This document shows, piece after piece, positions 2,900 to 61,467 of a stretch of DNA of 64,000 nucleotides (position 1 is its first letter; each line of letters opens with the position of its first letter). Location: NCBI RefSeq assembly GCF_037038585.1, contig NC_092524.1, positions 68,348,552 through 68,412,551 of the forward strand, given 5' to 3'. A model generated the notes under the pieces. It was not told the origin of the DNA. It made no database searches and was given only the letters and a program-made list of their open reading frames with translations. A program made the translations under genes and the position numbers. The DNA is from Patagioenas fasciata (taxonomy: Eukaryota > Chordata > Aves > Columbiformes > Columbidae).

Positions 2900-5800
2900 C
2901 TGTGGGTGAGAGAAAAACAGAGAAAGATATTCAGAGTTTGAGCTGAAGTCTTATGTTCACCTACATTCTCAAAATACTTCCTCCCTACAATTTACACTCA
3001 TCATTCGCTCCTCATGTGTGGGGAAAAATGCCCAGACACACACACGTATACATCTGTACACACACAAAGTCATGCATAGAACACATAATAATGCAAATTT
3101 GATACTTCAATAAACACACCTAGCCTGCAAGCAATAAAACTGCATCAGGAAACTGCTCTTGAGGACATTATAAAGAACTGCTAGTATAGTAACAATATAT
3201 AACACGAGGTTTTATTAATTAGTACAAATAGAAACCAACTATTTTTATGAAGATATCTGATTAAAAATAGACTCCTGCTACTCATTTCAACCTGGCTGTA
3301 CGTGACCAACCTGCACACGCTTACCTTGAAGTCTTTGGCACACTTTCTATATTCTGCCACGTCACAAATAGCCAACATGCCTCCCATGCAGCTGTAGGAA
3401 TATTGCTGGAGGTGTTCGTAGATGAGTCGATGAAAGCGAACTCCAAGTTCCATCAACACTGTGTCCACATTCTTACCATCCATAGAGTTTCTTATCTTTT
3501 CCACCTGCTTTCTAACGTAGCCACAGACTTTAACACAAGCCTAAATAAAAAAAGAAAAAGAAAGAAAGAAAAGCGTTAGGTAACTTTCTAGAAATCCGTT
3601 CTTCTCAAAGTGGCTTCCACATCGTAAACTGAACATCAGTCATTAAGTCTTTAAACTTCACACAACGCATCATTGGAATTCATCATTTTCCAATTAATAA
3701 TTTTCCAAGAGTTTTTTATTTGCCACATAAAGATGCAAAAAATGTGAGGAGAAAGATGGATGCAACGCAATATTCAATTAAGTTATAGCTGATACCAGCT
3801 CAGAACAGAACAGTTTAATTTGGGCTTTTAATTCAAACAATGATCAGGCAGGGGGACTGTGTGGGGGGAGGATTTGCTTGGTGCAAAATGGGATAGCAAA
3901 GCAAATTAATCAAACACACTTGTTGTCTAATGCGAGCTTGGTAAGGATGTATCTGATAACGCTTATGAACATTGGAGGCTATAGGATGAGCTGGGACTTA
4001 GTTTACTTACATTTGTATATTGAATCAAAACATTGTTTTCATCTTCTGGTTTAAAATCTGTCTTCTTTTGCTCTGCAGCCAAGATGTGCTTCATCTGTCC
4101 AATCATACAATTCAGTGTCCTTTAAAGTTACAAATACAGACAGGGTTTGGAAAGGAGCATTTTAATTGCCTTTATTTTTGTATCTACTTATACTGATACA
4201 ATTCTATGCAAAAGTAAGCAGTATAAAACAATGAGGAGCACCCCATCAATCCCTAACATTCGAGTAATCTACAGAAGATATAATAAATGTTTGCTTTTAG
4301 TGTAAGAAGCAAGCGATGCTAGGACATTATCAAAGGAAATACTCATTTAACAGACATCCACACACGCACATGGACTCTTCTGAAGTAGCAATGCAATTCT
4401 CTCAAAAAGATAAGCGTGATTTTATATGAAAAAATGAGAATCAGATTAATAAACAACCAGCAACCCTAAAAATACTCTTTCCTGCAAGTGCAGTGGTTGG
4501 AGCGGAGCACACAGCAGGCTGGCCAGCTGGTTTGAACGGGGACACATTAATTGTCAAGTAATCCATTCAAATCCAGCTCTTCAGAGAAACTGGATGGAAT
4601 TCTTCAATGCCGAGGGAATCAGCAAAGGGAGGGTTCCAAAGAGTTTAGCAGAATGAGATCGCATTGCGTATTACTCAGAAGCAAGCACCAGAACACACTT
4701 GGAAAATGAAGGGAGGGGGGAAGAAAAACCTCTTCCTCCACCAGAGCCTGATATTTCTTTTGTTCCCAGAAATCCAATAGAGTTTTACAGTGTCATTTAT
4801 TTCTCCCTCGCAGGTTTTATCTTCTCAGAACATTATCTAGGGTCAAGACCCTGGTTTACTTGAAGTCCGAACTAAAGGTCAAACAGCAAAGCAAGGCGAG
4901 AGGCTCCACACCTCCCTCAGTGCTGACCTTGGCCAAGAACCTCTCATCTCTTCTTCTTTTCCCCCTTCCCTTTTCTTCACCCCCCCTCACTCCTCCTTAC
5001 ACGGAAATACTGAAAGAAAATAAGTTGAAATAATTTTGTTTGGCTAATAAATCACTTTCAGAGGCGGACAACAGCTATGAACACTATTCAACAAGTTGCT
5101 GTTGGACTTCTTCAGACTGGATAACACTGAAACCATCCATGTTGAGAAATTTGCTTTTAGTTTTAAACTAGATCATTCCTTTAAGCAAGAAAATCAATTC
5201 TCAACAGCATCAGTGGCATGTAAACCGGCACAGAAACATTTTACATGTTACATTCATCTCAAAACTAATCTGTCTTTTCTATGTGCCAAAGCACAAACAC
5301 TTTCTTGAAGTTTGTGTCCACAAACCTTTGAACAGACCATTTTCCAGCAGGGACTTGAAGGGGCAACGAAGATGATTAAGGGTGTGGAGCATCTCCCGTG
5401 TGAGGAAAGGCTGAGGGAGCTGGGGCTCTGGAGCTGGACAAGAGGAGACTGAGGGGGGACTCATTCATGGGGATCAATATGGAAAGGGGGAGTGTCAGGA
5501 GGATGGAGCCAGGCTCTTCTCAGTGACAACCAATGATAGAACAAGGGGTAATGGGTACAAACTGGAACACAGGAGGTTCCACTTAAATTTGAGAAGAAAC
5601 TTCTTCCTGGTGAGGGTGGCAGAGCCTGGCCCAGGCTGCCCAGGGAGGTTGTGGAGTCTCCTTCTGTGCAGCCATTCAAACCCGCCTGGACACCTTCCTG
5701 TGGAACCTCAGCTGGGTGTTCCTGCTCCATGGGGGGATTGCACTGCATGAGCTTTCCAGGGCCCTTCCAACCCCTGACACTCTGGGATTCTGTGATTCCT

Positions 5801-26800: not shown

Positions 26801-27744
26801 ACACACCAAACCAACAACCGGCTCCTGAGTGACTCAGAGAGCAAACACAGGGTACATAGCAACATCACATCCCCACAAACCGGCCAGGGGGGCAAACACA
26901 GGTCACATCATGAAAGCCTGTGGTCCACTCCAGGGGAGAAGAATTTCCCAGACTCTTCCTAGAGAATCATAGAATCATTTTGGTTGGAAGAGACTCTTAA
27001 GATCATCGAGTCCAACCTAACTCTAGCACTAACCCACGGCCCTAAGAGCCTCATCTCCATGTCTGTCCAACCCCTGCAGGGATGGTGACTCCACCACTGC
27101 CCTGGGCAGCCTGTTCCAATGTCCAACAGCCCTTTCCATGAAGAAATGTTTCCTAACATTCAATCTATATTCCTTCCCTGCTCACGTGTGGTCCTGGGCA
27201 AGTTATTAGGCTTTTTTGCACCTCTGTTCCACTGCAGCAAAAGGGAGAGCAAAGTTATTTCCTTATTTCAGAGAAGCCGAAGCTGCACTGACACACCAGG
27301 CGCTGAGGTCAACTGAGTGTGTGCCTTGAGGAGCACAGGAGCCACGTTATCTGCTTGTCGGTGGGGCCTGGCCTGGCCTGTCACCCTGCCCAGAGCAGCA
27401 CCCATCTGCTGCAGAGCCCCGGGGAAGGAGACCCAGGCATAAAATGGACCGAAACCCCCTTGGCCTTAGGGAAGGAAGGGGCTGCAGCCCTCCCGGGGCA
27501 GCTCTCCTCAGCCCCCCAGTTCCCTCGGTTCCCCCATTGCGCCGCTCGCCCCCCTACACCCCCTCACCCCGGGCGGGAGGGCCCATTTCCATCCCCGCCC
27601 GAGCAGGAGCTCGGCCAGGGGCGGAGGATGAGGCCACGCATCCCTTCAGAGCGCCGGCCGGCCGCAAAACCGCCTCCCACCCCCGGGCCCAGCGCGGTCC
27701 GCTCCGCTCGCACCCACCTCGAAGAGCTCGGCTGTGGTGGCCAT
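2711..27744 (-). CDS. EXOC5: EXOC5 (exocyst subunit Sec10), complete 18-exon gene
   Basis: Encodes Sec10, one of the eight subunits of the exocyst, which tethers secretory vesicles to the plasma membrane before SNARE fusion; it pairs with Sec15/EXOC6 and is needed for ciliogenesis and polarised traffic (family knowledge). Joining 18 exons gives 2124 nt, 707 residues plus stop; the human protein is 708, and this copy lacks one proline in the Gly/Pro loop near residue 34. All exon phases match and every intron is GT-AG except intron 15 (GC-AG). The protein starts [12 protein letters not shown] and ends [10 protein letters not shown]. Residues about 40-100 are heptad-rich coiled coil (exon 3), followed by the long helical Sec10 region. 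The start ATG (27744-27742) has G at -3 and +4 and lies in a CpG island. Introns are short; intron 1 (4.0 kb) and intron 4 (4.7 kb) are the largest. The identification rests on near-complete residue agreement with vertebrate Sec10 as I remember it. Confidence 0.97.
3325..3540 (-). CDS. EXOC5: EXOC5 coding exon 17 (residues 574-645)
   Basis: 72 codons from [17 protein letters not shown] to [13 protein letters not shown]. The acceptor ends TTTAG and the donor is GTAAGCGT. Confidence 0.96.
4011..4119 (-). CDS. EXOC5: EXOC5 coding exon 16 (residues 537-573)
   Basis: From [17 protein letters not shown] to [10 protein letters not shown]. The acceptor ends TAAAG, the donor is GTAAGTAA, and the exon ends in phase 0. 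Confidence 0.95.
5341..5798 (+). repeat. CR1 LINE 3' fragment
   Basis: Truncated at the 5' end, with a 3' tail ending GGGATTCTGTGATTC. Lies in EXOC5 intron 15, antisense to the gene. Shares long stretches (GGAGCATCTCCCGTGTGAGG) with other copies in the window. Confidence 0.9.
6901..6987 (-). CDS. EXOC5: EXOC5 coding exon 15 (residues 508-537), GC donor
   Basis: From [14 protein letters not shown] to EVKLDMGID plus two bases of Arg537. The acceptor ends TGCAG. The donor reads AG|GCAAGT: a GC-AG intron with an otherwise ideal U1 match. Phase into exon 16 confirms the site. Confidence 0.94.
7101..7221 (-). CDS. EXOC5: EXOC5 coding exon 14 (residues 468-508)
   Basis: From [17 protein letters not shown] to [11 protein letters not shown] plus two bases of Ser508. 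The acceptor ends TTTAG and the donor is GTACCTTA. Confidence 0.96.
7942..8050 (-). CDS. EXOC5: EXOC5 coding exon 13 (residues 432-468)
   Basis: From [15 protein letters not shown] to [12 protein letters not shown] plus one base of Gly468. The acceptor ends TAAAG and the donor is GTGAGTAT. Confidence 0.96.
9734..9881 (-). CDS. EXOC5: EXOC5 coding exon 12 (residues 382-431)
   Basis: From [17 protein letters not shown] to [14 protein letters not shown]. The acceptor ends TCCAG, the donor is GTGAGTTT, and the exon ends in phase 0. Confidence 0.96.
11063..11272 (-). CDS. EXOC5: EXOC5 coding exon 11 (residues 312-382)
   Basis: From [19 protein letters not shown] to [11 protein letters not shown] plus two bases of Gly382. 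The acceptor ends TAAAG and the donor is GTGAGTTT. Confidence 0.96.
11631..12040 (-). repeat. CR1 LINE 3' fragment, older subfamily
   Basis: In reverse orientation; starts CACAGAATCACAGAATGG and runs to CCCCATAGCTC. Its sequence differs from the main subfamily here. Lies in EXOC5 intron 10. Confidence 0.85.
12151..12233 (-). CDS. EXOC5: EXOC5 coding exon 10 (residues 285-312)
   Basis: Encodes [17 protein letters not shown] to NLYDLYT plus two bases of Arg312. The acceptor ends TACAG and the donor is GTATTTTG. Confidence 0.95.
13300..13440 (-). CDS. EXOC5: EXOC5 coding exon 9 (residues 238-284)
   Basis: 47 codons from [16 protein letters not shown] to [10 protein letters not shown], phase 0. 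The acceptor ends CCTAG and the donor is GTATATTT. It carries a few conservative changes relative to mammals (for example V for I). Confidence 0.95.
13537..13581 (-). CDS. EXOC5: EXOC5 coding exon 8 (residues 223-237)
   Basis: A 45-nt exon encoding [15 protein letters not shown], phase 0 on both sides. The acceptor ends CACAG and the donor is GTAAATGC. Confidence 0.95.
14056..14165 (-). CDS. EXOC5: EXOC5 coding exon 7 (residues 186-222)
   Basis: Encodes [18 protein letters not shown] through [10 protein letters not shown]. The acceptor ends TCCAG and the donor is GTAAAAAC. Ends in phase 0. Confidence 0.96.
14313..14341 (-). CDS. EXOC5: EXOC5 coding exon 6, 29-nt microexon (residues 176-186)
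   Basis: Encodes [10 protein letters not shown] plus the first base of Ser186. The exon is only 29 nt. Its place is fixed by phase on both sides (acceptor AACAG, donor GTAAGTTA). Confidence 0.93.
14780..14844 (-). CDS. EXOC5: EXOC5 coding exon 5 (residues 155-176)
   Basis: Encodes [21 protein letters not shown] plus two bases of Arg176. Flanked by acceptor AACAG and donor GTACAAGT. Confidence 0.95.
15007..15118. repeat. G/T-rich low-complexity tract in EXOC5 intron 4
   Basis: Built from GGTTT/GTTTT-like units with runs of G. Complementary in composition to the C/A tract at 18832. Confidence 0.8.
15459..16130 (-). repeat. CR1 LINE 3' fragment
   Basis: In reverse orientation, one of the longer copies (about 670 bp), in EXOC5 intron 4. 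The 3' tail (CACAGAATCCCAGAATG) is at the low coordinate. Confidence 0.9.
18832..18925. repeat. C/A-rich low-complexity tract in EXOC5 intron 4
   Basis: Built from CAAAA/AAACC-like units including a run of six C. Confidence 0.8.
19589..19783 (-). CDS. EXOC5: EXOC5 coding exon 4 (residues 90-154)
   Basis: An exact 65-codon exon from [16 protein letters not shown] to DVFTNSEK. The acceptor ends CCCAG and the donor is GTAAGAGC. Confidence 0.96.
20176..20323 (-). CDS. EXOC5: EXOC5 coding exon 3 (residues 40-89), coiled coil
   Basis: Encodes the heptad-rich helix running from [13 protein letters not shown] to VQELQKSNQ. In Sec10 this N-terminal coiled coil packs with partner exocyst subunits. 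The acceptor ends ATCAG, the donor is GTAAAA, and the exon ends in phase 0. Confidence 0.96.
21265..21368. repeat. Possible DNA-transposon remnant in EXOC5 intron 2
   Basis: GGCCCTCTGGGGGCAACTAC and GTGAGTTCGACGCCCCTGAT resemble a pattern common in old non-autonomous vertebrate DNA transposons. Family not assigned. Confidence 0.3.
23588..23679 (-). CDS. EXOC5: EXOC5 coding exon 2 (residues 10-40)
   Basis: Starts [14 protein letters not shown] and continues through a glycine-rich loop to FDPK plus a split Arg codon. The acceptor ends CCAG and the donor is GTAAAA. One residue (Pro) shorter than the human exon. Confidence 0.95.
25500..25519. repeat. Poly(A) run in EXOC5 intron 1
   Basis: A run of about 17 A after GGGG. 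No retrocopy was recognised beside it. Confidence 0.6.
25962..26040 (+). repeat. Unassigned repeat, copy A (EXOC5 intron 1)
   Basis: About 80 bp, over 90% identical to 28549-28630 in the same orientation. Core CTGTATAAATGAAACTAAAC. Both copies lie in open reading frames containing CINETKLD and [10 protein letters not shown]. Not recognised as CR1. Confidence 0.7.
26961..27175 (-). repeat. CR1 LINE 3' fragment
   Basis: In reverse orientation; begins GAATCATAGAATCATTTTGG and includes CTGGGCAGCCTGTTCCAATG. Lies in EXOC5 intron 1. Confidence 0.88.
27718..27744 (-). CDS. EXOC5: EXOC5 coding exon 1 (residues 1-9)
   Basis: Encodes MATTAELFE and is followed by donor GTGGGTG. It sits inside the CpG-rich block. 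The exon ends in phase 0. Confidence 0.95.
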
Positions 27745-27869
27745 GGCCACAGGGAGGGCGGCGAGGCTCCTCAGCGGCCCGCTACCACCTCCCCACCGCG
27801 GCCGCCCATTGTGTCCTGCCGCCCCGGCAGGAGCAGCAGCCGCCGCGGCGCCGCCTCCGCCCGCCGGAA

Positions 27870-28005
27870 ATGGGCCTGCGCCGGGCGGCCGGGCCGGGGA
27901 GGGGCCGGCAGCTGCGCGCCGAGGCGGCCGCTGTCAGCGCCGGCACCGCCGCGGGGCTACGGCTGCGGCTGCTCATGCTCATGGCGGCGTCGGGCACCTC
28001 CCCAG
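27870..28005 (+). other. Possible short first exon on the AP5M1 side
   Basis: In-frame ATGs at 27870 and 27981 lead to a good donor, CCCAG|GTACCG, at 28005/28006. The peptide does not resemble the AP5M1 N-terminus I know. The phase at the donor (1) does not match what the AP5M1 exon at 32223 needs (2). It may be a non-coding or decayed first exon, or chance in G+C-rich DNA. Confidence 0.2.
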
Positions 28006-28330
28006 GTACCGGCGGGCGTGTGGAGAACCGGGGGGGGACACCGGCCGGGCTGGGTGTCCGTAGGAGCTCGGCGAGGGATTACGGCCGCCGCCTCTCCCCG
28101 CAGCCCGTCGGGAGCGTCTGGCCCCGGTTAAAGGGGGAGAGAGAGAAAAGTCCGCGGGTTCGGGTCGGAGCCGCCGGTGCTTTCAGAGCGGCCGGGGCCG
28201 CGAAACAAACAATAGTTTGATGTCTTATAAATCCCTTCGCTCCTCAGAGCAGCCCCGGCCGCTGGACATTTGTGAACCTGGGTTTGAAAATGTCTACGTT
28301 CAGATAACGTGCTTTTCACAACCGCCTAAA

Positions 28331-28505
28331 TCTGTTTTGGTTTTGGTTTTGTTTGGTTTGCGTTTTTTGTTGTTTTGGTTTTTGTGTGTTTGTTTGGGTT
28401 TTGTTGCTTGTTTCTGTTTCGTGGGGTTGATTGGTTTATTTTTCTTTTCACTTTTGTTTGCTTGGTTCAGTTTGGTTTGGGTTTTGTTGTTTGTTTGTTT
28501 CTCTT
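28331..28505. repeat. G/T-rich low-complexity tract beside the CpG island
   Basis: About 175 bp of TTTTGG/GTTTG-like units on the plus strand. Confidence 0.8.
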
Positions 28506-28548
28506 TCTGCATTTTGCACGACTCTCATTTCCTCTGATCCTCTCTCTA

Positions 28549-28630
28549 TTTGATCTGCTCTGTATAAATGAAACTAAACTGGACCGAGCCACGTTAAAAT
28601 CCAGTTTAGAAGCAATCATTGTTAAAGATT
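28549..28630 (+). repeat. Unassigned repeat, copy B (other side of EXOC5 exon 1)
   Basis: Partner of 25962-26040, differing at a handful of positions. It lies just past a G/T-rich tract outside the CpG island. Confidence 0.7.
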
Positions 28631-31618
28631 TTACCGAGCTCTCGCTGTCCCTACGTGGCAAAGGATAAGGTGGGGATTATGAAGTGATTAGGCCAACAAA
28701 ATGGGCAAAGTGGAAAAGGTGTATTTTGCTTCTGTTTTGCTTATATTCTCTTTACATTGTTCCATACTTGAACTAAAAGTTCAGTATTTTCAGGCTGGAA
28801 TTTAACTTTCCATTTGATTTTAATTTTTGCATAGAAGGACCAGTCTATAAGTAACTTCCCTTATATTGTCTTAGAAATAGCATATTTAGTAGAGTAGCAA
28901 AGCTGTAGTAGTAGCATGCTATAAGTAAAAAGCTGTTGTAATTGAATTTTATTTCAATTTTTACATTCAAGGACAGGGTTTTTTAAGGTAGCGAAGCAAA
29001 GGAGGAATTGATTCAGAACTCTTACAGAGTTTTAAGTGGGCAGGCTGCTTTTGTTGGGCTGGTGAAGTTTGTTGCCGTTTCCATGCGTGATTTTGATGGA
29101 CCCAGTTCCGAAGAGCGAGAGGAAAAACAACTTGGGAGGTAGGAAAAGGGAAAATAGTGAGACTTGGCCAAAGAGACACGACCTACAGTCCTAGTCTGAA
29201 TTCGGTAAAACTGAAAAGGGAACCAAGAAGGATTAACAAAAAAAAAGAGCAAGTAGGCTATCTTCCATCTTCAGGTGCAGACAGATCTCCACGTTGGACA
29301 TTCCTCTGATTGTTTTAGGATTAGTATTATAGTCCTTGTATTACCTACGAGACTAGAGATGAGGCCTCCCCTCTACAAACACAGAGAAAGAGAAAGCCTT
29401 GTCCCAAAAATCTGAGAGTGTAATCGCCATGGAGGAAAAGGGGGGGTAGTGACAGGGATATGTGAAGTAACTTGTCACACAGTAAGTGGCAGAGACAAGG
29501 AGTAGCCCCTTTGAAAAGGGCAAACTCGACTTGATGCTTGAAGTGATTTCCAGACTTAGATCTTTCACGTTCCCAGAGGAAATAATAGGGCTGTGGAAAC
29601 CCCAAGTTTATCCTCCTAACTGACCTTAAATTCAACAAAGCGCGCAGACAATATAAAGAATGCGGGATCGCATGGAAACTGTTGGTTTCGGGACTTACGC
29701 ACTCAGCTGGAGATACGTGAGCCCTGATCTTTAACCTCGGAGAAGACATCTGGGACATCAAAGCATTCCGCTTTTTCTTTTTGAGCCGATCATAACTTAA
29801 TTCGGGCAACAAGTACGGGCTCTCTCTTGAATCACCAAAGCTCATTCATCCCTGGAAACTGTCATCTTTTTAAGTTTTCATCACTTTCTAGAAGGGAATA
29901 CTGAAGAACCGAGATCCGAAGGGCTAAATCATCATCTAATGATTCAGCTGAAGCTGGGGAGATCCAGCAGGAGGAGGAGAAGATTGCGGTGGTGTGGGGA
30001 CAGCTTCAGCAAATGGAGCAGACAGGTTGGTACATAAGTAAGACAAAACTAGACTGAAATATCACCCCTTCCTTTGTTTCGGGAACATTGACTGAGATGC
30101 TTGCCAAAGTTACGTGTAGCCTCTTATCAACAGCCTTGCTCTGGGAGTCCTCCTGAATTTTCAAGCTGCAAAACCACTCTCTTTGCTCTTCAAAATAGAC
30201 ATGAGGCTGTAAGGAGGCGTTTTACTGTCGTCTTTATCCTGTTTATGGATCTCGTGCCTCTGGCTTCTCTCTGCCTGTGCTTGCTTTTTCCTTACTGAAA
30301 AAAATAAATAACATAAAAAAGCCCTAGATGCCTGATTAAGAATCAAAGAAAAAAAGCACAGTCGCTGCAAATAAGCCTGAGGAAACGAAGCTGCCTCCAG
30401 CAAGAGACTCTGCTGCTCAGTTGAGAAAAGCTGGTGTAGGTGGGACTTAGAGGTAACGGGGTAAGAACCGTGCAAGTGTTGAGGAGCAGACGGGGAGCGC
30501 TCCATATGGAGGTTAGAGATAAACCAAAGTGCCACGTTGCTGGCATTACAAGTTCCATGGCAATTTAAGCAGCAGACTGTGGATGTGTCTTTAAAAAGAG
30601 ACGCTCAGTTCCAAGAAAGGATGAAAAACAATGCATTTGTGGAAGTAATAGTTTTTCTTTTCTCATTTATTAAAAGACAGCTTTCCAGTTCCTCTTGATA
30701 GATTGAGGTTAGCTTGAGCAGAAATTCATCCCTCTCTCCTTTAAAAAGTAATACCGCTTCAGAAGAAAAATATCCCAGATGGAGCATTAACAGCTAGTAT
30801 GACTTTTCTCAAACATTATCTCTAGGGAATTTGAAATTAAATATATACATTGGTGCGGCATAGCAGTTTTAAAATGTACAAAATTTGTGTCTCCGTGACA
30901 TGGTTACATCTTAAATACTCAAAAAAATATTGAAATGATTAAACAGTCATAAAAGCCTTAAGTCACATATGTTGCACTTGCAGGGTGGAATCCATTTCTC
31001 TCCCCCGTTAAAACCAGCTCTTGCTGGAAAAAATTGACTTGCGCACAGTAAAATATTTATAATATTGTAAAGATTTTAGTTGAATTTGATTATGTGGGAC
31101 ATCAGTTTTCTTAAATGGCTGAAAACTTGTCTGCAATGTGATTTGGCCTCTTAGAAACATCTCGCTGTTGAAGTTTCCCTGCACTGGTGTGAATCGTCCT
31201 TGGGTTCATTGGTGCCATTTAAACACCTTTTACCTTTGTGCAACAGGAAGGGTGAACACACAAATTCACATTTTATTAAAAAAATGAGTGAATGGATTTG
31301 CTCAAAGTTTCCACTAGAAATCCACCAGCTAGAATGAATATTAATTACATGTGAAATAGCTTTATTGGCAATAACTTAGATGCTGACCCTGTCACTCTTT
31401 CCATTGGGACACTGATGGATTCCACTTGAACGAGGTTACTTTGAGGTCCGGGAGGCCTTTTGGAGTTATTTGAATACCTAAGAGAAACCCATCCTTGATT
31501 GTATCAATATTCCAAACACTTTTATAATGTTTTTGTATTCTCTGACAGCCAGCAAAGGGATTGAGTCTAGAAACTCTGCTGGTATGGTATTTTGGGTGGG
31601 AAAAGAGTCTCCTCTGAG

Positions 31619-31738
31619 ACATTCAAACCCGCCTGGACCCACCTGTGTGATCTGCTCTGGGACCCTGCGTGAGCAGGGGGGTTGGACTGGGGGATCTACA
31701 GAGGTCCCTTCAACCCCAACCGCTCTGTGATTCTGTGA
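31619..31738 (+). repeat. Short CR1 3' end
   Basis: A 120-bp plus-strand piece ending CTCTGTGATTCTGTG, facing the minus-strand CR1 that starts about 35 bp further on (tail to tail). Confidence 0.75.
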
Positions 31739-31771
31739 AAAGATGAGTTATGCTAAGATGCTCTTATTTCA

Positions 31772-32202
31772 CAGAATCCCAGAATGTCAGGGGTTGGAAG
31801 GGACCTGGAAAGCTCATCCAGTGCAATCCCCCCATGGAGCAGGAACACCCAGCTGAGGTTCCACAGGAAGGTGTCCAGGCGGGTTTGAATGGCTGCACAG
31901 AAGGAGACTCCACAACCTCCCTGGGCAGCCTGGGCCAGGCTCTGACACCCTCACCAGGAACAAGTTTCTTCTCAAATTTAAGTGGAACCTCCTGTGTTCC
32001 AGTTTGCACCCATTGCCCCTTGTCCTACCCTTGGTTGTCACCAGGAAGAGCCTGGCTCCATCCTCCTGACACTCCCCCTTTCCATATTGATCCCCAGGAA
32101 TGAGTCCCCCCTCAGTCTCCTCTTCTCCAGCTCCAGAGCCCCAGCTCCCTCAGCCTTTCCTCACACGGGAGATGCTCCACTCCCTTCAGCATCTTGGTGG
32201 CT
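31772..32202 (-). repeat. CR1 LINE next to AP5M1 pseudo-exon 2
   Basis: In reverse orientation with its 3' tail at 31772. Its 5' truncation point at 32202 lies about 20 bp before the AP5M1 exon that starts at 32223, so the element occupies where the polypyrimidine tract should be. Confidence 0.9.
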
Positions 32203-32222
32203 CTAAATGACACATGTCACAG

Positions 32223-32615
32223 GTGTTACCCCACCGTTGAAATACACTCCAAGACCTTCAACAGGTCAACACGTGCCTGCACCATCAGACAGCACCTTTC
32301 TTAAAGCTTTGCTTTTGGAACTGCAACTTAGAGATGACCATATTTTTGTGGAGCGTCAATCGTTCGTCGGTTTATTCAGTTCACGACAAAGGAGGGGACC
32401 TCTGGCCCATGCTTGCTTTTCAGAAGAGTGGTCTGATAAATGAGTGTCTTTCGCTAATTGAGGAGACCTTGGAGCCACGGCCTCCCCTCCTTACCATCAG
32501 TGGGCTCTTGCAAGGACCAGCTCTTCTCTTAGGCCCTGTGGATGACAGCTCTACAAGTTGGAAAAATGAAACCGGGTGTGAGAATAAGAGCAAAAAACTG
32601 TTACAAATTAAAATG
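32223..32615 (+). pseudogene. AP5M1: AP5M1 pseudo-exon 2 (truncated, two frameshifts)
   Basis: Begins after acceptor CACAG with CYPTVE (RYPTVE in mammals). One extra base near 32263 moves the frame to HVPAPSDSTFLKALLLELQL. A second shift near 32350 moves it to GGDLWPMLAFQKSG and LEPRPPLLTISG. Similarity fades after about 32615, leaving some 75 residues of the mammalian exon unaccounted for. Confidence 0.88.
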
Positions 32616-33911
32616 ACGTGTCAGCAGTGCTTTTTTTCCCCTATTTTGATCTTCACTGTTTTTTCCTGGATCGTTCAAGCATTTTTTCAGTAACTATGAA
32701 ATGTAAATTTCCAGCAGTAGCTACATTGCATGTATTTTCCCAAATTTTTCTTATTTTAAATGAAATAGGGAGAAATGATTTTGTAAAGTCTTGGCGTATA
32801 GAGACTAAGAAACAGCAGTGCTAACACCAAGTTTATCTCTAGCTAACTAATAAGCAATGTGTTAAATAATTATTAGAAATGGAATTTCTGAGTGAGTCTT
32901 CTATAAGTGTCTTCACATGACCATTTTTAATTAATTTTCCTACCAAATGAAAGTTCAATCTTCTACCCTACTTTATTCTATTACGGCAACCTTTTGAATC
33001 CACAAGTGCCGTTTGTTGGACCGATGTAAAAACTGTTGATACAGAACCTGGTGAAAGAATCTGGTTGTGTAATTACTTTGAATTGTTTTGTACGTGACAG
33101 CGGTTTTCATTGGTCAATACTGGAATTTGGGGCATACTGGCTGAATAGATAATTATGGAATACATTCATATTTGTGTTTTCTATAATTGGTGTATTTAGG
33201 ATTCTTTGTCATGGATTATGCGTAGGAAGCACACTACATCATCACAGTGCGCTGTATTTGTAACTACCAGTGTTTTAAGAGGAAAAAGACCTAATAAAGG
33301 GGATCACAGTAATTTAATTATTTGCAAGAGAAGGGATACTCATCTCTGAAGGAAACCAACGCAGGTATTGCCCTTCCGAAGACAGGGTGACTTCCCACCA
33401 GCCATGATGGTTGAGATCATGGGGATGAACAGGTTCCTGCTCACAGAGCAACACATTTCTAGGTTGACTTGTTGAGTGGATGACCTTATATTTAAAAGAA
33501 AGAGAAGCCCAGGAGAAAGCTGACGTGGGACCACAGTGGCCATTAATAGCGCACTTCAATACATTAGGTGGATGTTTGAGAAGTCACTGAATTAATTAGA
33601 CAATCCCCAAGTGTGTTTATGTGACATTCATTACAGCGTAGATGTACAGTAAGTCCGTGGCTTGCTTATCTGCTCTTTTCTTGCTAAAGAGTCCTTGGTA
33701 ATTAAGAGGTGTTTAGCTAAGACGGCCTCACTAGCACTGCTGTGCAAAAGGCTGCAGAAATGGGGAGGGACTGTTTTGGAAGTGTTTGTCAGTACTCATG
33801 TTTGAAAAACATTAGTGTGATTTTTTTTACACTCTTGTATTCCATTTTTTAACATCTAATTCTGGCTTGAGGGGAAAATTCAAGAATAACTTCTTGACTT
33901 CATTTTTTCAG

Positions 33912-34132
33912 GTGTGACGTAGAGGGATCTGCACCAAACGCAGCCCAAAGCTTGAATGTCCCGACGAATGGTCCTCCAGTCCAAGATACCGTGGTCCATC
34001 ACTTCTGTTGACCCTGCCATGCTGATGTCCAGCAGTGCTGAGCCCCTGGATGATTCTGCGTATAACAGACCATAAAAGTTTCCTTTCATTCCTCCTTCAG
34101 ATTCATTCAACTTGCATTACCACACTTCCCAG
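33912..34132 (+). pseudogene. AP5M1: AP5M1 pseudo-exon 3 (frameshift and stop)
   Basis: After TTTTTTCAG it reads [20 protein letters not shown] in one frame. It shifts at 34000-34006 into DPAMLMSSSAEPLDDSA, hits TAA at 34073, then continues KFPFIPPSDSFNLHYHTSQ to a donor GTAATA. Matches the start of the mu-homology region. Confidence 0.9.
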
Positions 34133-34562
34133 GTAATAACATCCCTGACCTGTGTTATTTTCCAGTCTCCCAACAGAAATAAAAATACCTGTGTTGTTGA
34201 ATGTGTCTGAATGAATCTCAATCTGATACAGGTGGGTAAAATGGTTTTTATATAATAAACTGCTTGGAAGGTGCTTCAGGGCTTGAGTCATCTGAGTCAC
34301 CTTCAGGACGGGCTGGTACCTTTGACTGCTTGACTCTACTGATCTTAATTTAAATGAACTACTTAGACAAAATATATCCAGGCTGAGATATAAAGTGGAT
34401 ATACCACAAATCTACTTATCGCAAGCAGCCTCAAGAGTTTGGTACAGTCAACAATTAATACGTTTGTTATTTTTTAAAGTACTTTAGCAAATTAAACAGT
34501 GTATAACAGATCTTGTGATGATGGTGTTAATTTATCTTGGGAACTAATACGGTTTTTTCCAG

Positions 34563-34703
34563 GTTCCTGTTCCACCAATTTTGAGATGTTATCAACTCAT
34601 CAAAGAGGATTCACAGTTAAAAATAACAGTTAATTTAAAGCTTCATAAAAGCATGAGGAGTTCTTTTTGAGTATTGTGAAGCTCCTATACCTTTTTTCAA
34701 CAG
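34563..34703 (+). pseudogene. AP5M1: AP5M1 pseudo-exon 4 (one-base insertion)
   Basis: Reads [16 protein letters not shown] then [14 protein letters not shown] five-T run at 34664-34668 appears to carry an extra base. Beyond it the frame that matches is [12 protein letters not shown], ending at donor GTAAGA. Confidence 0.9.
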
Positions 34704-35447
34704 GTAAGAATAAAGAAATCCTAACCAAATTTCTTCCATTTCTCTGTGGTCTTCCTGAAATTAACAGGAGTGAATACGACAGATGATGCTCCATCAAAAT
34801 ACTACCAGTAGACACTGACCTTGCATATGTCAGGCAGCCCCCTTGGGATTCTTGTAATTTCCAGAATACAGAATCATACCAGAATATTTAGTAACGTTCT
34901 GAATACTTGCGTTGCGCATCCTGTTCCCCTGTGGTATATTTTCATTGAAACCCTGGCACAGTCCTTCAGGTGGATTAAGTCTTGAGATCACTAACAACCC
35001 GGGGTTACCTGTTCCTTAAGACTGCTAATCCTAGCTACAGATCAGCTTAGCCAAAATACAGTTATTTAAAATTAAAACGATAGTTTTCATTTAAGCCTCT
35101 CCGGCAACTGCAATGGCTATGCCGTCACATAATTATCATCGAAATTATAAAGATGGGATGATACAAAGTTGATGATGCTGATCATAGCATTAGTAAAACA
35201 CTATCAGTGAACTAAAGACAGTAAAATATCAACAGCTCTTTTATGATTACTAGCTTGAGACCATGGTGATTTCCTCCTGCTCTGTAATTTCTTTCCACAA
35301 ATTAGCGGTGTGCTCAGATAAGTGTGATTTGTCTGTATGCGCATAAATAACGTCTTTCAGCGTTTTGTTGCTTTAACAAAATGGGTGTTAACAAATACTG
35401 AATGATACTAATTCCAGTGGTTTTATTTCTCCTCTGTTATACTGCAG

Positions 35448-35533
35448 GGGCCCAATCGCTTAATTAGAGTCCCAAGTTAGTTATGGCCAACTGGATTTGT
35501 CATGAGAGAAGAGCCTACTGGTTTGGGTCGTCG
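35448..35533 (+). pseudogene. AP5M1: AP5M1 pseudo-exon 5 (two stops)
   Basis: One continuous frame GPIA*LESQVSYGQLDLS*EK then SLLVWVVG. TAA at 35461 replaces the expected His. TGA at 35503 replaces an Arg, as expected from a CGA to TGA CpG transition. The donor GTAAGC is intact. Confidence 0.9.
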
Positions 35534-35634
35534 GTAAGCAGAATACCCCATGCGTTCTTAATTCCTCCCCAGTCGGTTTTGTGTGGTGTAGGCACAGCTG
35601 TAGAATTTCTTACAAATGTTGTTTCTGGCTTTAG

Positions 35635-35742
35635 GACAGAAGTTCCCTAAATCTTTGGAAGTTTCTATAACTGTCTTTTGGCACTGTGGGCAAATAGCAC
35701 CCAACTGGTTATGTTTGCACTGGGAACACTGCTTACGTAAAA
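35635..35742 (+). pseudogene. AP5M1: AP5M1 pseudo-exon 6 (frameshift)
   Basis: After TTTAG it reads QKFPKSLEVSITV. The matching frame at the far end is VCTGNTAYVK, displaced by one base. The donor is GTAAGT. Confidence 0.88.
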
Positions 35743-35993
35743 GTAAGTCACAGGCTGTGAAAAGAGGCCTTAGTAGTAATTTTTTTAATTATCATAAATA
35801 GCCTATGAAAATATGTTGATTTTAAATCAAACATAATTGGTAACCTCTTTGTGCTGAGCATGGAATCTTCTGTTTTCTTGCTTACGGGATTTGACCTCCT
35901 GTCATTTTGGAGTACTCTTGTACACCAAGCGCACGTAACACAGATTGCCAGTATGACAATGTGCATCTGGTCATGTTTTCCTTCTTTCTGCAG

Positions 35994-36090
35994 CTGTATT
36001 TTAGGATCCCAGATTTCACACTTACTGGATGTTATGTAGACCAACATTCTATTCAGATCTTCGCACCAGGAAAACCCAAAATTACTGCAT
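35994..36090 (+). pseudogene. AP5M1: AP5M1 pseudo-exon 7 (still open)
   Basis: After CTGCAG it reads [17 protein letters not shown] then [15 protein letters not shown] with no lesion. It ends in phase 1 at donor GTGAGT. Strong match to the C-terminal part of the mu-homology domain. Confidence 0.92.
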
Positions 36091-36145
36091 GTGAGTTGCT
36101 CAAAATGTCGTTTATTTAACTGAAACTGCATATTGAAGTTATGAA

Positions 36146-36585
36146 TCACAGAATGTCAGGGGTTGGAAGGGCCCTGGAAAGCTCATCCAGTGCAATCCCC
36201 CCATGGAGCAGGAACACCCAGCTGAGGTTCCACAGGAAGGGGTCCAGGCGGGTTTGAATGGCTGCACAGAAGGAGACTCCACAACCTCCCTGGGCAGCCT
36301 AGGCCAGGCTCTGCCACCCTCACCAGGAACAAGTTTCTTCTCAAATTTAAGTGGAACCTCCTGTGTTCCAGTTTGAACCCATTGCCCCTTGTCCTACCAT
36401 TGGTTGTCACCAGGAAGAGCCTGGCTCCATCCTCCTGACACTCCCCCTTTCCATATTGATCCCCAGGAATGAGTCCCCCCTCAGTCTCCTCTTCTCCAGC
36501 TCCAGAGCCCCAGCTCCCTCAGCCTTTCCTCACACGGGAGATGCTCCACTCCATTCATCACCTTCGTTGCCCCATCCTGAACTGG
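36146..36585 (-). repeat. CR1 LINE 3' fragment
   Basis: In reverse orientation, inserted in the last intron of the AP5M1 pseudogene. Very similar to the copies at 31772 and 53162. Confidence 0.9.
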
Positions 36586-37576
36586 ATGTCAATGCCTAAA
36601 ATTCAGTAGTTAAAATTGGACAAAGGTTTACTTGTTCCAGGTTTGCTTGGAGCATCCCATAAATTTTGTTTTCTGCTTCGTATTTTTTTTCTTGTGATGC
36701 TTAATGCATCCCTGGAGGAGGTGCTGGCATCTCCCTTTCACATGAAAGCTCAGGCTCTCTCTTGGGCTCTCTCCCCTTCACCCTGTGGTGTTTTACTGTG
36801 CTCTGCATGGCAGAATTTTTACTGGGGGGGCAGAGAATCTCTCTCCATGGTCTGGCCTCTTGGTTAGGAAGCTTTTGTCAGAGATACGATACGTGGATTG
36901 GAAATACCCAGATACAGAACCAGCTCCCCTATGCAAGGTCAGCGTGGTGGCACCAGCATCCCTTGGTGGACGTGGCACTACGTAAAATCCGTGGAGCAGA
37001 AACCAAATCTGCTTATGCTTGACTTAACTCATGCCTGCTTCCAAGTCTGCCAAAATACACAAACTGGGAATACAATGAGCGCTCGTTAAATCTGAGCAGC
37101 GCTACTTAATGGAACCATTTTTTCATTTGTTGCTGTCTATCTACTGCAACTTCTGTCAGTCATGCTAACAGAAGTCTGTAAAAACCTTTCGAAAACTGTC
37201 ATCTACACTTAATTTTGCGACGGGTCACACTCAGTCCTAAATTGTAACACAAAAATCAACATTTTCATAGTGTATGTTTAACATCGAGTACGCAATTTAT
37301 ATTCATTGAACAAAATCCAAGCCACTCACCTGCCTTGGACTTAACCTCTGTTTGAATTTTAAGCTCATACCTTGGTAAAGGTAATTGAAGCTGAGACTTG
37401 AAATTGCTCATTATCAGAAATTATTTTCAAATAATAATAAGAGTCTTAGAGTTCAAAGAGGCCATTATACCTTTCCTGTAAACTGGTATAGATGGATTAG
37501 TAGTCTCTTAACTTGGATGAGGGAATGTCTGATTATAAGCACCTTGTAATGCTTGTTTTTCTTGCTTGTTTTTCAG

Positions 37577-37644
37577 TCCTGGAACTAATTTCTTCCCATT
37601 ACTACATCTGGACCAGCACCTATGGTGTACAAAGCCCTAACTGA
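37577..37644 (+). pseudogene. AP5M1: AP5M1 pseudo-exon 8 (terminal, open, shortened)
   Basis: After TTTTCAG it completes the split codon of exon 7 and reads LELISSHYYIWTSTYGVQ before TGA (37642-37644). The mammalian tail is longer and differs after YYIW, so the end is probably altered by a small deletion or shift. Confidence 0.8.
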
Positions 37645-37719
37645 CTCATTTGCTTGTGAATTATTTTTGTATTTAAACAAAATGGACAGCTAATGAGAGT
37701 AACTTCATGATACAGTGAA

Positions 37720-37725
37720 AATAAA
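37720..37725 (+). terminator. AP5M1: Relic AP5M1 poly(A) signal AATAAA
   Basis: AATAAA 75 bp after the last pseudo-exon stop, in the position expected for a short AP5M1 3' UTR. Confidence 0.5.
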
Positions 37726-37799
37726 CATCCTCCAGCACTTGTAGTTTGCATGTTTGCTTAACAATTTTTTTGAGGAAAAACAAAAGAAATCACTTCTCT

Positions 37800-40700
37800 T
37801 AAAAGCATTAGTTGGCTTTAAGTTGCTTAGTTGTGGATAACAGCCCAGAGAAGACAATTTGAAATGTACTTACCGTGGCTATTTTTACTTTCCCTTCTAA
37901 CATTAACTGGTACAAAAGAAGCACCCAGTGGTACAGATGTGTCATGAGGTCACAAGAATCTGATTAGACCCCAGATTAATAGGACAGTTAAGAGCAAGAC
38001 TTCTGCTATTTTCACAAGATGCTTACAGAATACATACGAGTCAAGAATTTACAGGATTTGGGGGGGTGGGGGGAGTATGGCATGAGCAGAGCTTCTAAAA
38101 GAGAGGATAATAGAGGGGGTTTTATTGCTCTGTCAGTGATGAGTTGCGTTTCATACAAGCCAGCGAACTGCATTGTTCTGAAACCCAGAATTAGTGACGA
38201 TCCAGAGGTGTGAAGCTGGTTCTATCAAATCCCAGGCCTAGCTCTGAGCAGGTCAAACCAGCCAAGTTTGCTGGAGGTTCCAAAACAACATTGCCGAGCC
38301 ATTTTCCCTGGAAAAAAAAACAAGGCATAAAAGAAAAGGACTCTGTTTACAGAGGCAGAGCTAATTTTGAGAAGAGATTTGGTATCTGCAGGAACACAGG
38401 AAATTCACATTAAAAAAGTTATCGGGAAACGAGCAAATTGTGAAAGGCTGGTGAAAAACATGAAGGAACCTGAAGAGCAGCACAAAAGAAGAGAAGAACA
38501 CCATTGAATAACCAAGCACACCGGCTACTCCGGTACCTCTTGTTTAACTCTACGATAAGTGATTATGTAAGGAGAAAAGTTTAAGCTATAATTTAAAAAA
38601 TGCTTAGATTGAGATGGTAATCTAACAGGTTGGCTAAATGTTCTAAGGGGTGGATTAATTCACGTGAAACATGTCGTTCAGCTGAACCTATAAAACAGAG
38701 CTATGCTCTGACTCGTTTCACACAGGTGGTGTGTCCATTTTAATCAGCAAAAGGTGAATTAATGATTGTTTTTCCCAGATTCCAGCCCCTACCTGTTACA
38801 GTCAGTGTGTCTGGACACCACGATGTGAGCGGGGAGAGGGGATCTCTCTGTGAAAGGTTTTAGATCACGTTCTGTTTGTCAGGATCTTGGGGTGGGTAAT
38901 GTTTCTCTTCTAGCCCTGAGCAGTTTTCTATAACTTCATGCCACCCATTGCCTGTTTTGATTTATTAGAAGGGTTTGCTCCATAAACCTCTGGATTGTAC
39001 TGTTTCCCCAAAAATAAGCCCTACCCCAAAAATAAGCCCTAGCATGATTTTTTCAGGATTTTTGAGGATGCTCAAAATATAAGCCCTACTCCAAAAATAA
39101 GCCCTAGTCACAGTTCATAAAGAAAGTCAATTTAAATAGCATCCAGTCAGCTATACATGTAAAAAAGCAAGCATCTTTTGGAGCAAAAAATTAATGTAAG
39201 ACCCTGTCATATGCAGCATGGAAAGCACCCACGAATGAGTCAGGCAGCAAAACATGAGGTTATATTGGCACGTGTCTTAATCCAACAGGTTTGTGCAACA
39301 ACTCTGGTTATTGGACAAGGTTGTTGGATCAGTTGGTGGTGAAACAGATGATGCCTTTCTCTTGACCTGATGGCTACGCTTGGCTTTTGGGAAGAGCCCA
39401 TTCTCATGGATGTTTTGTAAGTCTTCGTAAGCCGGTAAGCTAGTAAAGTGAGCTTAGTAATGAACTTCGTGAGCTTAGTAAGTACATTGTAGCAACTCAG
39501 GTCTATCACAACTGAGGTACCTTTAGGTGAGACCTGGAGAACACAGGGAGAGAAATGAGTGATGGGTCTGGAGTTCAAGGAGTTAAAAATGATTGAACCC
39601 TTCTGTGTGTCCCTTGGAGTTCCCCAGACAATTTTGCTGCTTCTCTACACACTCTGAGCACTTTCCCTGTTTTAAAAGGGAGAAAAAAACACTTTAAAAA
39701 CTAAATCGAGGAAAGATTGAGAGCTCACATGAGCCTGAGGACTCTGTGGCAGAGGTGGCATCTAACAGTAGTTCTGGTGGGTTCTGAAGGTGGTTAAGCC
39801 CTGTGTCTCTGGTATTCCTTTAGCTCTTTAAAAAAAAACAAGTTCTCTGAAGATAATACAACAGTTACTTAAAAATAATCTGTGTTAAATGGAAAAAAAA
39901 TAACAATATACTCTTTTGGTCCAAGAGTCTTTGCTGCTTGAAATGCTTATAATTGTGTCACAAGTATCAACTCTATGAGATCTACACTGATAGATTTGCA
40001 CAAAGAGGTGGCCAAAGAGTTCTCCAGGCTTAGTAAAGGCCTAGAAGAAAACTAACAAGCAAACCCTGGAAAAGAACAAACTTAAATAAATACTGGCTTG
40101 TCAACCCAACTTTTTTCCCAAATAAAATAATGGGTATAAATAAGAAGTTAGGATAGAACTCACTTCATTATTAAAATGAACTTCATTAAAATTTTGGGGT
40201 AATGTAACTAATGCCAACTGACATGAATTTAAAGCAAATATGTACTGTCAAACTTTTTAGATGAGTCTGTACATTAAATTGGCAAAGAGAACTGAAGTAA
40301 CGGACCTTCAAAATTAAGGAACACTCTTGGCATTTCTAAATACAGTGGCAACGGGGAAGCACCACCAAACATGTTTTGAAGCCTGACTGTGTTATTTAAC
40401 TCTTTCTAGAAGGTGTGGAAGGAAATGGAGAATTTGCATTGATGCTGGTGCAGTGGCTGAGAAGCAGCAGTTACTGAAGGTGCTGAAGGCCTCATCAAAC
40501 CCTGATGGTTTGGATGTCTCAGAAAAAAACAACTTTTAAAGACTTCCAGCACAAGCAGGTGCAAAGGTGTGGATCTGAGAACAGGTGCTATTGGTAGAGA
40601 GTGAGAGAAAATGGTGGTCGAGTGTCAAAGAGACTTAGAGTAGGTAGAAGAACCAGCTGAATGCACAAGAAGGAAAAATTCAGGATGAATACCTGGCACT

Positions 40701-53161: not shown

Positions 53162-53870
53162 GAATCATAGAATGCTAGGGATTGGAAGGGCCCTGGAAAG
53201 CTCATCCAGTGCAATCCCCCCATGGAGCAGGAACACCCAGCTGAGGTTCCACAGGAAGGTGTCCAGGCGGGTTTGAATGGCTGCACAGAAGGAGACTCCA
53301 CAACCTCCCTGGGCAGCCTGGGCCAGGCTCTGACACCCTCACCAGGAACAAGTTTCTTCTCACGTTTAAGTGGAACCTCTTATGTTCCAGCTTAAACCCA
53401 TTACCCCTTGTCCTACCATTGGTTGTCACCGAGAAGAGCCTGGCTCCATCCTCCTGACACTCCCCCTTTCCATATTGATCCCCAGGAATGAGTCAGCCCT
53501 CATTCTCCCCTTCTCCAGCTCCAGAGCCCCAGCTCCCTCAGCCTTTCCTCACACGGGAGATGCTCCACTCCCTTCAGCATCTTGGTGGCTGCGCTGGACT
53601 CTCTCCAGCAGTTCCCTGTCCTTCTGGAACTGAGGGGCCACAACTGGACACAATATTCCAGGTGTGGTCTCCCCAGGGCAGAGCAGAGGGGCAGGAGAAC
53701 CTCTCTGACCTACTGACCACCCCTTCTAACCCACCCCAGGTACCATTGGCCTTCCTGGCCACAAGGGCCCAGTGCTGGCTCATGCTCACCCTGCTGTCCC
53801 TAGGACCCCCAGGTCCCTTTCCCCTACACTGCTCTATAATAGGTCATTCCCCAACTTATACTGGAACACT
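53162..53870 (-). repeat. CR1 LINE 3' fragment (longest copy)
   Basis: In reverse orientation, about 700 bp, with the 3' tail at 53162. Extends further 5' than most copies. Confidence 0.9.
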
Positions 53871-60933: not shown

Positions 60934-61467
60934 TGCCCTGGTGAGACCACACCTGGAATATTGTGTCCAGTTGTGGCCCCTCAGTTCCAGAAGGACAGGG
61001 AACTGCTGGAGAGAGTCCAGCGCAGCCACCAAGATGCTGAAGGGAGTGGAGCATCTCCCGTGTGAGGAAAGGCTGAGGGAGCTGGGGCTCTGGAGCTGGA
61101 GAAGAGGAGACTGAGGGGGGACTCATTCATGGGGATCAATATGGAAAGGGGCAGTGTCAGGAGGATGGAGCCAGGCTCTTCTCGGTGACAACCAGTGACA
61201 GGACAAGGGGCAATGGGTTCAAACTGGAACACAAGAGGTTCCACTTAAATATGAGAAGAAACTTGTTCCTGGTGAGGGTGTCAGAGCCTGGCCCAGGCTG
61301 CCCAGGGAGGTTGTGGAGTCTCCTTCTGTGCAGCCATTCAAACCCGCCTGGACACCTTCCTGTGGAACCTCAGCTGGGTGTTCCTGCTCCATGGGGGGAT
61401 TGCACTGGATGAGCTTTCCAGGGCCCTTCCAGTCCCTCACATTCTGGGATTCTGTGACTCTGTGAAA
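60934..61467 (+). repeat. CR1 LINE 3' fragment
   Basis: Plus strand, about 530 bp, near-identical to the 40955 copy, with tail GGGATTCTGTGACTCTGTGA. Confidence 0.9.

Follow-up and report, generated by a model that had tools for sequence, protein, structure and literature searches.

Background

AP-5 is an adaptor complex of four subunits that works with SPG11 and SPG15 (PMC7814351), and loss of SPG11, SPG15 or AP5Z1 leads to hereditary spastic paraplegia in humans (PMC7814351). According to a report on eukaryotic genomes, AP-5 has been lost many times, mostly with all six proteins absent, and the genes for mu5 and beta5 are either both present or both absent (PMC3191125). Here we describe a stretch of 64 kb from Patagioenas fasciata (C5:68348552-68412551; hereafter the window) that carries the remnant of AP5M1, the gene for mu5. 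The evidence supports a unitary pseudogene. In contrast to the reported coordinate losses (PMC3191125), zeta, sigma5, SPG11 and SPG15 remain in this genome, and one of the losses can be seen as a pseudogene in place.

An egg-laying vertebrate without a working mu5 has been described in the zebrafish over easy (ap5m1) mutants, which have opaque eggs, smaller yolk globules and failed cleavage of yolk protein (PMC11302925); in the present case it is the sequenced animal that has lost the gene. By analogy with that phenotype, the loss of AP5M1 in an egg-layer would be unexpected, which is no argument against the sequence itself. To the genes reported as missing in birds (PMC4290089), AP5B1, the gene for beta5, would add another that is unfound on a small GC-rich chromosome, whereas AP5M1 sits on a 71.7-Mb contig on which its lesions are readable. 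The main text of that report contains no word starting with AP5, MUDENG, C14orf108 or EXOC5, and among the matches listed in open-licence literature for AP-5, AP5M1 or AP5B1 together with birds or gene loss, no title or abstract opening describes this loss. In PMC6121843, a table links AP5M1 and the figure 2868 to a single-nucleotide polymorphism at Chr5:58018667, which shows annotation only. In being syntenic, intron-bearing, multiply broken and single copy, AP5M1 here resembles ordinary unitary pseudogenes; it differs from them in that the rest of its complex appears to be only half lost.

Results

The AP5M1 remnant

Two AP5M1 queries were used: the sequence of PDB chain 8yab_E, which we assume to be mouse AP5M1, and a human AP5M1 sequence. 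Whole-assembly searches covered 1.454 Gb in 359 contigs. The locus was re-aligned under three penalty settings by a splice-aware script that tolerates frameshifts as well as introns.

With both queries, tblastn gave collinear matches on the plus strand between 32221 and 37626, the terminal exon being weak by itself (E 0.65-0.85). Seven exons, in order and next to EXOC5, had been proposed in a preliminary description of the window, and tblastn and spliced alignment agree on them (Table 1). From exon 3 to exon 8, all five introns have GT-AG boundaries; the donor site of exon 2 is not recognisable. For exon 1 (codons 1-25), the best score within 27001-32222 was 19.0, which is not above that of eight shuffles (8.5-19.0), and a separate exon-1 alignment that contained a stop was spurious and was discarded. 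The remnant adjoins EXOC5 in divergent orientation, an arrangement that we take to be ancestral by comparison with the human genome.

Five frameshifts, near codons 42, 78, 272, 351 and 408, are present at all three settings. A sixth, near codon 479, is probable and appears at the most permissive setting only; past it, the downstream frame reads PAPMVYKAL against PAPVTYGSL in the human protein. There are three to four in-frame stops (Table 1), of which the TAG in exon 6 disappears into an insertion when the strictest setting is used. Human codons ~174-240 (about 65 codons) have no convincing counterpart; the alignment program spreads them over 32650-32817, or further, at low identity. Frameshifts called at codons 173, 174, 178 and 217 and stops called at codons 212 and 220 each occur at one or two settings within the unalignable codons ~173-240, and were not counted. 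The preliminary description had counted five or more frameshifts, three stops and a missing part of ~75 codons; these counts are confirmed with a slight refinement, to 5-6, 3-4 and ~65, respectively.

Table 1. Coordinates of the AP5M1 remnant and of other features in the window; codons are those of the human protein.
Feature	Position	Strand	Description	Basis
AP5M1 exon 2 remnant	32223-~32650	+	codons 25 to ~173; frameshifts ~32272, ~32355	tblastn and spliced alignment
AP5M1 exon 3 remnant	33912-34132	+	codons 240-316; frameshift ~34000; TAA 34073-34075	tblastn and spliced alignment; codon read by eye
AP5M1 exon 4 remnant	34563-34703	+	codons 316-363; one-base frameshift in T run, ~34660-34666	tblastn and spliced alignment
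AP5M1 exon 5 remnant	35448-35533	+	codons 363-392; TAA 35461-35463; TGA 35503-35505	tblastn and spliced alignment
AP5M1 exon 6 remnant	35635-35742	+	codons 392-431; frameshift ~35676 by four-T run; TAG 35695-35697	spliced alignment
AP5M1 exon 7 remnant	35994-36090	+	codons 431-464; lesion-free	tblastn and spliced alignment
AP5M1 exon 8 remnant	37577-~37644	+	codons 464 through ~488; a frameshift is probable at ~37612	seen only at the permissive setting; inspected by eye
AP5M1 exon 1, expected zone	27745-32222	+	between EXOC5 and exon 2; no recognisable exon 1	
EXOC5	2714-27744	-	intact; 18 exons	
Young CR1-like repeat copy	31776-32205		stops ~20 bases short of the acceptor of exon 2	
Second CR1-like copy	36145-36564		within intron 7; shares 97.6% identity with that at 31776	

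Copy number and assembly error

The preliminary description had called AP5M1 a unitary pseudogene and had proposed a search of the whole genome for an intact copy. A protein search of the assembly yielded six matches with E <= 1. Every one of them is at this locus, and no second copy, intact or otherwise, was found. A DNA search with 32000-38000 returned the match to itself and otherwise only repeat matches (42 rows). The scope of these searches is the assembled DNA.

As controls for assembly error, EXOC5, AP5Z1, AP5S1, SPG11 and ZFYVE26 provide ~6,570 codons with no real lesion, against 8-10 lesions in the 370 readable codons of AP5M1. In EXOC5, the alignment to the human protein covers codons 1-708; 707 of these align and one is absent, there is no frameshift or stop, and identity is 95.9%. 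If errors were evenly spread, the probability of all lesions landing in AP5M1 would be between 6e-11 (eight lesions) and 2e-13 (ten lesions). Because the control codons hold no real lesion, assembly error was rejected as the cause of the AP5M1 lesions. A processed or duplicated copy was rejected as well, because introns are present and there is no other copy. That AP5M1 is a unitary pseudogene in this genome is therefore supported by its position beside EXOC5, the kept introns, the many independent lesions and the lack of any other copy in the assembly.

Retained partners

AP5Z1 lies on C19; all 807 of its codons are aligned, in 17 exons with 56.9% identity and no lesion. AP5S1, on C4, spans human codons 1-193, of which 185 are aligned with 50.8% identity, also with no lesion; its locus has a GC content of 66.5%, yet is assembled. 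SPG11, on C16, is open across nearly all of its 2,443 codons. At SPG11 codons 14-18, what had looked like a frameshift with a stop proved, when the DNA was read, to lie upstream of an ATG that opens the conserved frame, and an apparent non-GT donor near codon 815 resolves in the DNA to GTAACG..TTGCAG; neither was counted as a lesion. ZFYVE26, the gene for SPG15, lies on C5 at 35.3 Mb and is open over codons 3-2490, codons 1-2 being unaligned and the last 49 being beyond the DNA fetched or aligned. Its one non-AG acceptor resolves to CAG three bases on, and stops within its match pieces, which are gone in the spliced alignment, were read as run-over into introns.

AP5Z1 and AP5S1 together hold no lesion in 992 aligned codons. 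If these two genes had been free of constraint for as long as AP5M1, the probability of this outcome would be 2e-6 given ten AP5M1 lesions, 8e-6 given nine and 3e-5 given eight; for a quarter of that time it would be 0.006. Both genes appear to be retained by selection, the constraint being judged across one genome. Coordinate loss of AP-5, in the sense that all four subunits, SPG11 and SPG15 are absent, is not what is found, as AP5Z1, AP5S1, SPG11 and ZFYVE26 are all open. The preliminary description had suggested that the partners might be relaxed or lost too, and had named AP5B1, AP5Z1 and AP5S1 as genes to be checked for loss. This suggestion fails for the four open genes, whose frames are open across almost their entire aligned length, and fits only AP5B1, which was not found.

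AP5B1 and its expected interval

Three queries for AP5B1, namely the human protein and the Pfam families AP5B1_middle and AP5B1_C, gave no match in the assembly at E <= 1, whereas the AP5Z1 and AP5S1 families, searched by the same method, gave matches above their cut-offs. In the human genome, AP5B1 lies between RNASEH2C and OVOL1. KAT5, OVOL1 and a divergent RNASEH2C are grouped here on C46, a contig of 1.68 Mb. The 40 kb read beside KAT5 has a GC content of 63.5% and no N, and stops occur among the KAT5 match pieces. The first exon of OVOL1 lies at 1301834 and RNASEH2C apparently starts at 1303902, so that the gap between them is 2,067 bases, with no N and rich in tandem repeats.

In this interval, tblastn with AP5B1 gave no row at E <= 10; across the 40 kb it gave two rows (E 0.69 and 8.9), both in repeat-like sequence. 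Spliced alignment of AP5B1 to the interval region gave a score of 66.9 on one strand and of 63.7 on the other, compared with 47.4, 61.9, 59.0 and 63.7 for reversed or shuffled controls. Taken together, these results suggest that beta5 may be truly gone rather than unassembled, an absence read from one assembly. RNASEH2C aligns poorly (37.7% to the human sequence, with two frameshift calls) and was used as a marker only.

Several further observations concern the repeats of this region. Within RNASEH2C (C46:1303902-1305849), the end of exon 1 is seemingly repeated as a minisatellite. In intron 3 of OVOL1 (C46:~1294124-1295685), a minisatellite includes partial repeats of the first part of exon 4 (AGVRPYKCSLCDKAL or a similar sequence), at least three of them in addition to the exon itself. 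Half of the 40 kb (C46:1286001-1306000) contains long simple and minisatellite arrays. Both strands of these carry open frames that reach hundreds of codons in length and would lead gene finders astray.

Discussion

A possible complex without mu5

The reading that we prefer, and consider reasonably probable, is that the beta5/mu5 half of AP-5 is gone, and that zeta and sigma5 are kept with SPG11 and SPG15 and work without mu5. According to this reading, beta5 would have been lost first, on a small, GC-rich and repeat-ridden chromosome, and mu5, destabilised without beta5, would then have decayed; the order is a guess. Mu5 binds beta5 and is destabilised on beta5 knockdown (PMC3191125). Zeta and sigma5, together with SPG11 and SPG15, would go on doing a job that is independent of mu5, and the remaining proteins would form a functional complex that lacks it. 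Such a job is suggested because zeta and sigma5 are free of lesions at the low probabilities given above for equally long freedom. It is also plausible because CIMPR, a cargo receptor, is recovered in pull-downs with part of SPG15 (PMC5806898), recruitment requires phosphatidylinositol 3-phosphate (PI3P) and Rag GTPases (PMC7814351), and the localisation of SPG15-GFP is little affected by joint knockdown of AP5Z1 and AP5M1 (PMC7814351).

In a more specific form, to which we give roughly even chances, AP-5 would be a working half-adaptor, a complex of zeta, sigma5, SPG11 and SPG15, in which SPG15, its PI3P-binding FYVE domain and the Rag GTPases choose cargo and membrane, and mu5 would be dispensable in a large-yolk egg-layer. 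A machine thought to be all-or-nothing may survive here as a half.

Several points weigh against the survival of a half complex. The expected neighbours of AP5B1 follow from the human gene order. The AP5B1 family searches were matchless in control genomes too, and an empty answer by itself proves nothing; moreover, the spliced score of AP5B1 is marginally above the controls on one strand, although not clearly above them. A release of zeta and sigma5 confined to the most recent 14% of the period for which AP5M1 has been free would fit the lack of lesions, with P about 0.04, and the sample is one genome. In the literature, AP-5 is reported as a single complex of four subunits, any of which gives a similar phenotype when knocked down, and partial AP-5 gene sets are attributed to likely failed searches (PMC3191125), of which AP5B1 could be one. 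In addition, GC-rich bird genes often remain unassembled (PMC9516821, PMC11061957).

Alternative explanations

The last of these points is also an argument for the alternative that AP5M1 alone is dead, with AP5B1 unassembled, moved or too divergent and AP-5 lacking its mu subunit only: GC-rich genes do drop out of bird assemblies (PMC9516821, PMC11061957), and the lack of an AP5B1 match is no proof. We nevertheless consider it unlikely, in view of the three matchless AP5B1 queries beside sister families that matched above their cut-offs, the expected interval that is assembled without N and is just 2 kb long, and the assembly of AP5S1 in spite of its GC content. A different possibility is that the entire pathway is dying, mu5 and beta5 having gone first and zeta and sigma5 having been released, with their lesions still to come. 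It agrees with the finding that AP-5 genes are lost together in most lineages surveyed (PMC3191125). The 992 lesion-free codons of zeta and sigma5, however, argue against release at the same time as mu5 or for a quarter of that time, and make this course of events quite improbable.

Retention of zeta and sigma5 would also be accounted for by a hybrid complex, in which another mu or beta subunit replaces mu5 or beta5. The AP-5 subunits are very divergent from their AP-1 to AP-4 counterparts, and we regard such a replacement as very improbable. The probability that the lesions are an assembly or haplotype artefact and that the animal has an intact AP5M1 is close to negligible. Judged by eye, the frameshift near codon 351 is within a T run and that near codon 408 is beside one, as an artefact might produce, but those near codons 42, 78 and 272 are not; 3-4 stops and several deletions outside runs stand against ~6,570 lesion-free control codons, and the assembly holds no other AP5M1 copy.

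If it is true that a half of AP-5 goes on working, a lineage without mu5, and apparently without beta5, would separate the role of the SPG11/SPG15/zeta core from that of the other half, and would permit a direct comparative and biochemical test of the two halves. It would also bear on the need for mu5 in the yolk handling of egg-layers, as proposed from zebrafish (PMC11302925).

Age of the loss and repeats around AP5M1

Four stops in 370 codons correspond to a neutral divergence since the loss of AP5M1 of ~0.12 (0.03-0.32). At avian substitution rates, the loss would be, as a rough estimate, tens of millions of years old, and the lower part of the range is favoured because the five GT-AG introns are retained. 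Given how alike they are (Table 1), the two repeat copies, one next to exon 2 and the other within intron 7, probably arose after the loss.

NAA30 was sought within the window and was not found. The young repeat, which we take to be CR1-like, has nine copies (two of them partial) in the 64 kb, including those at 61024-61450, 5363-5788 and 53164-53590. Besides the query, 23 of the 40 near-full-length matches listed lie in C5:67.5-70.3 Mb, two of them in the window; among these matches (40 of 3,450 candidates scored), the repeat forms a strong local cluster around the window. Pairwise identity among 11 copies is 93.6-97.6%.

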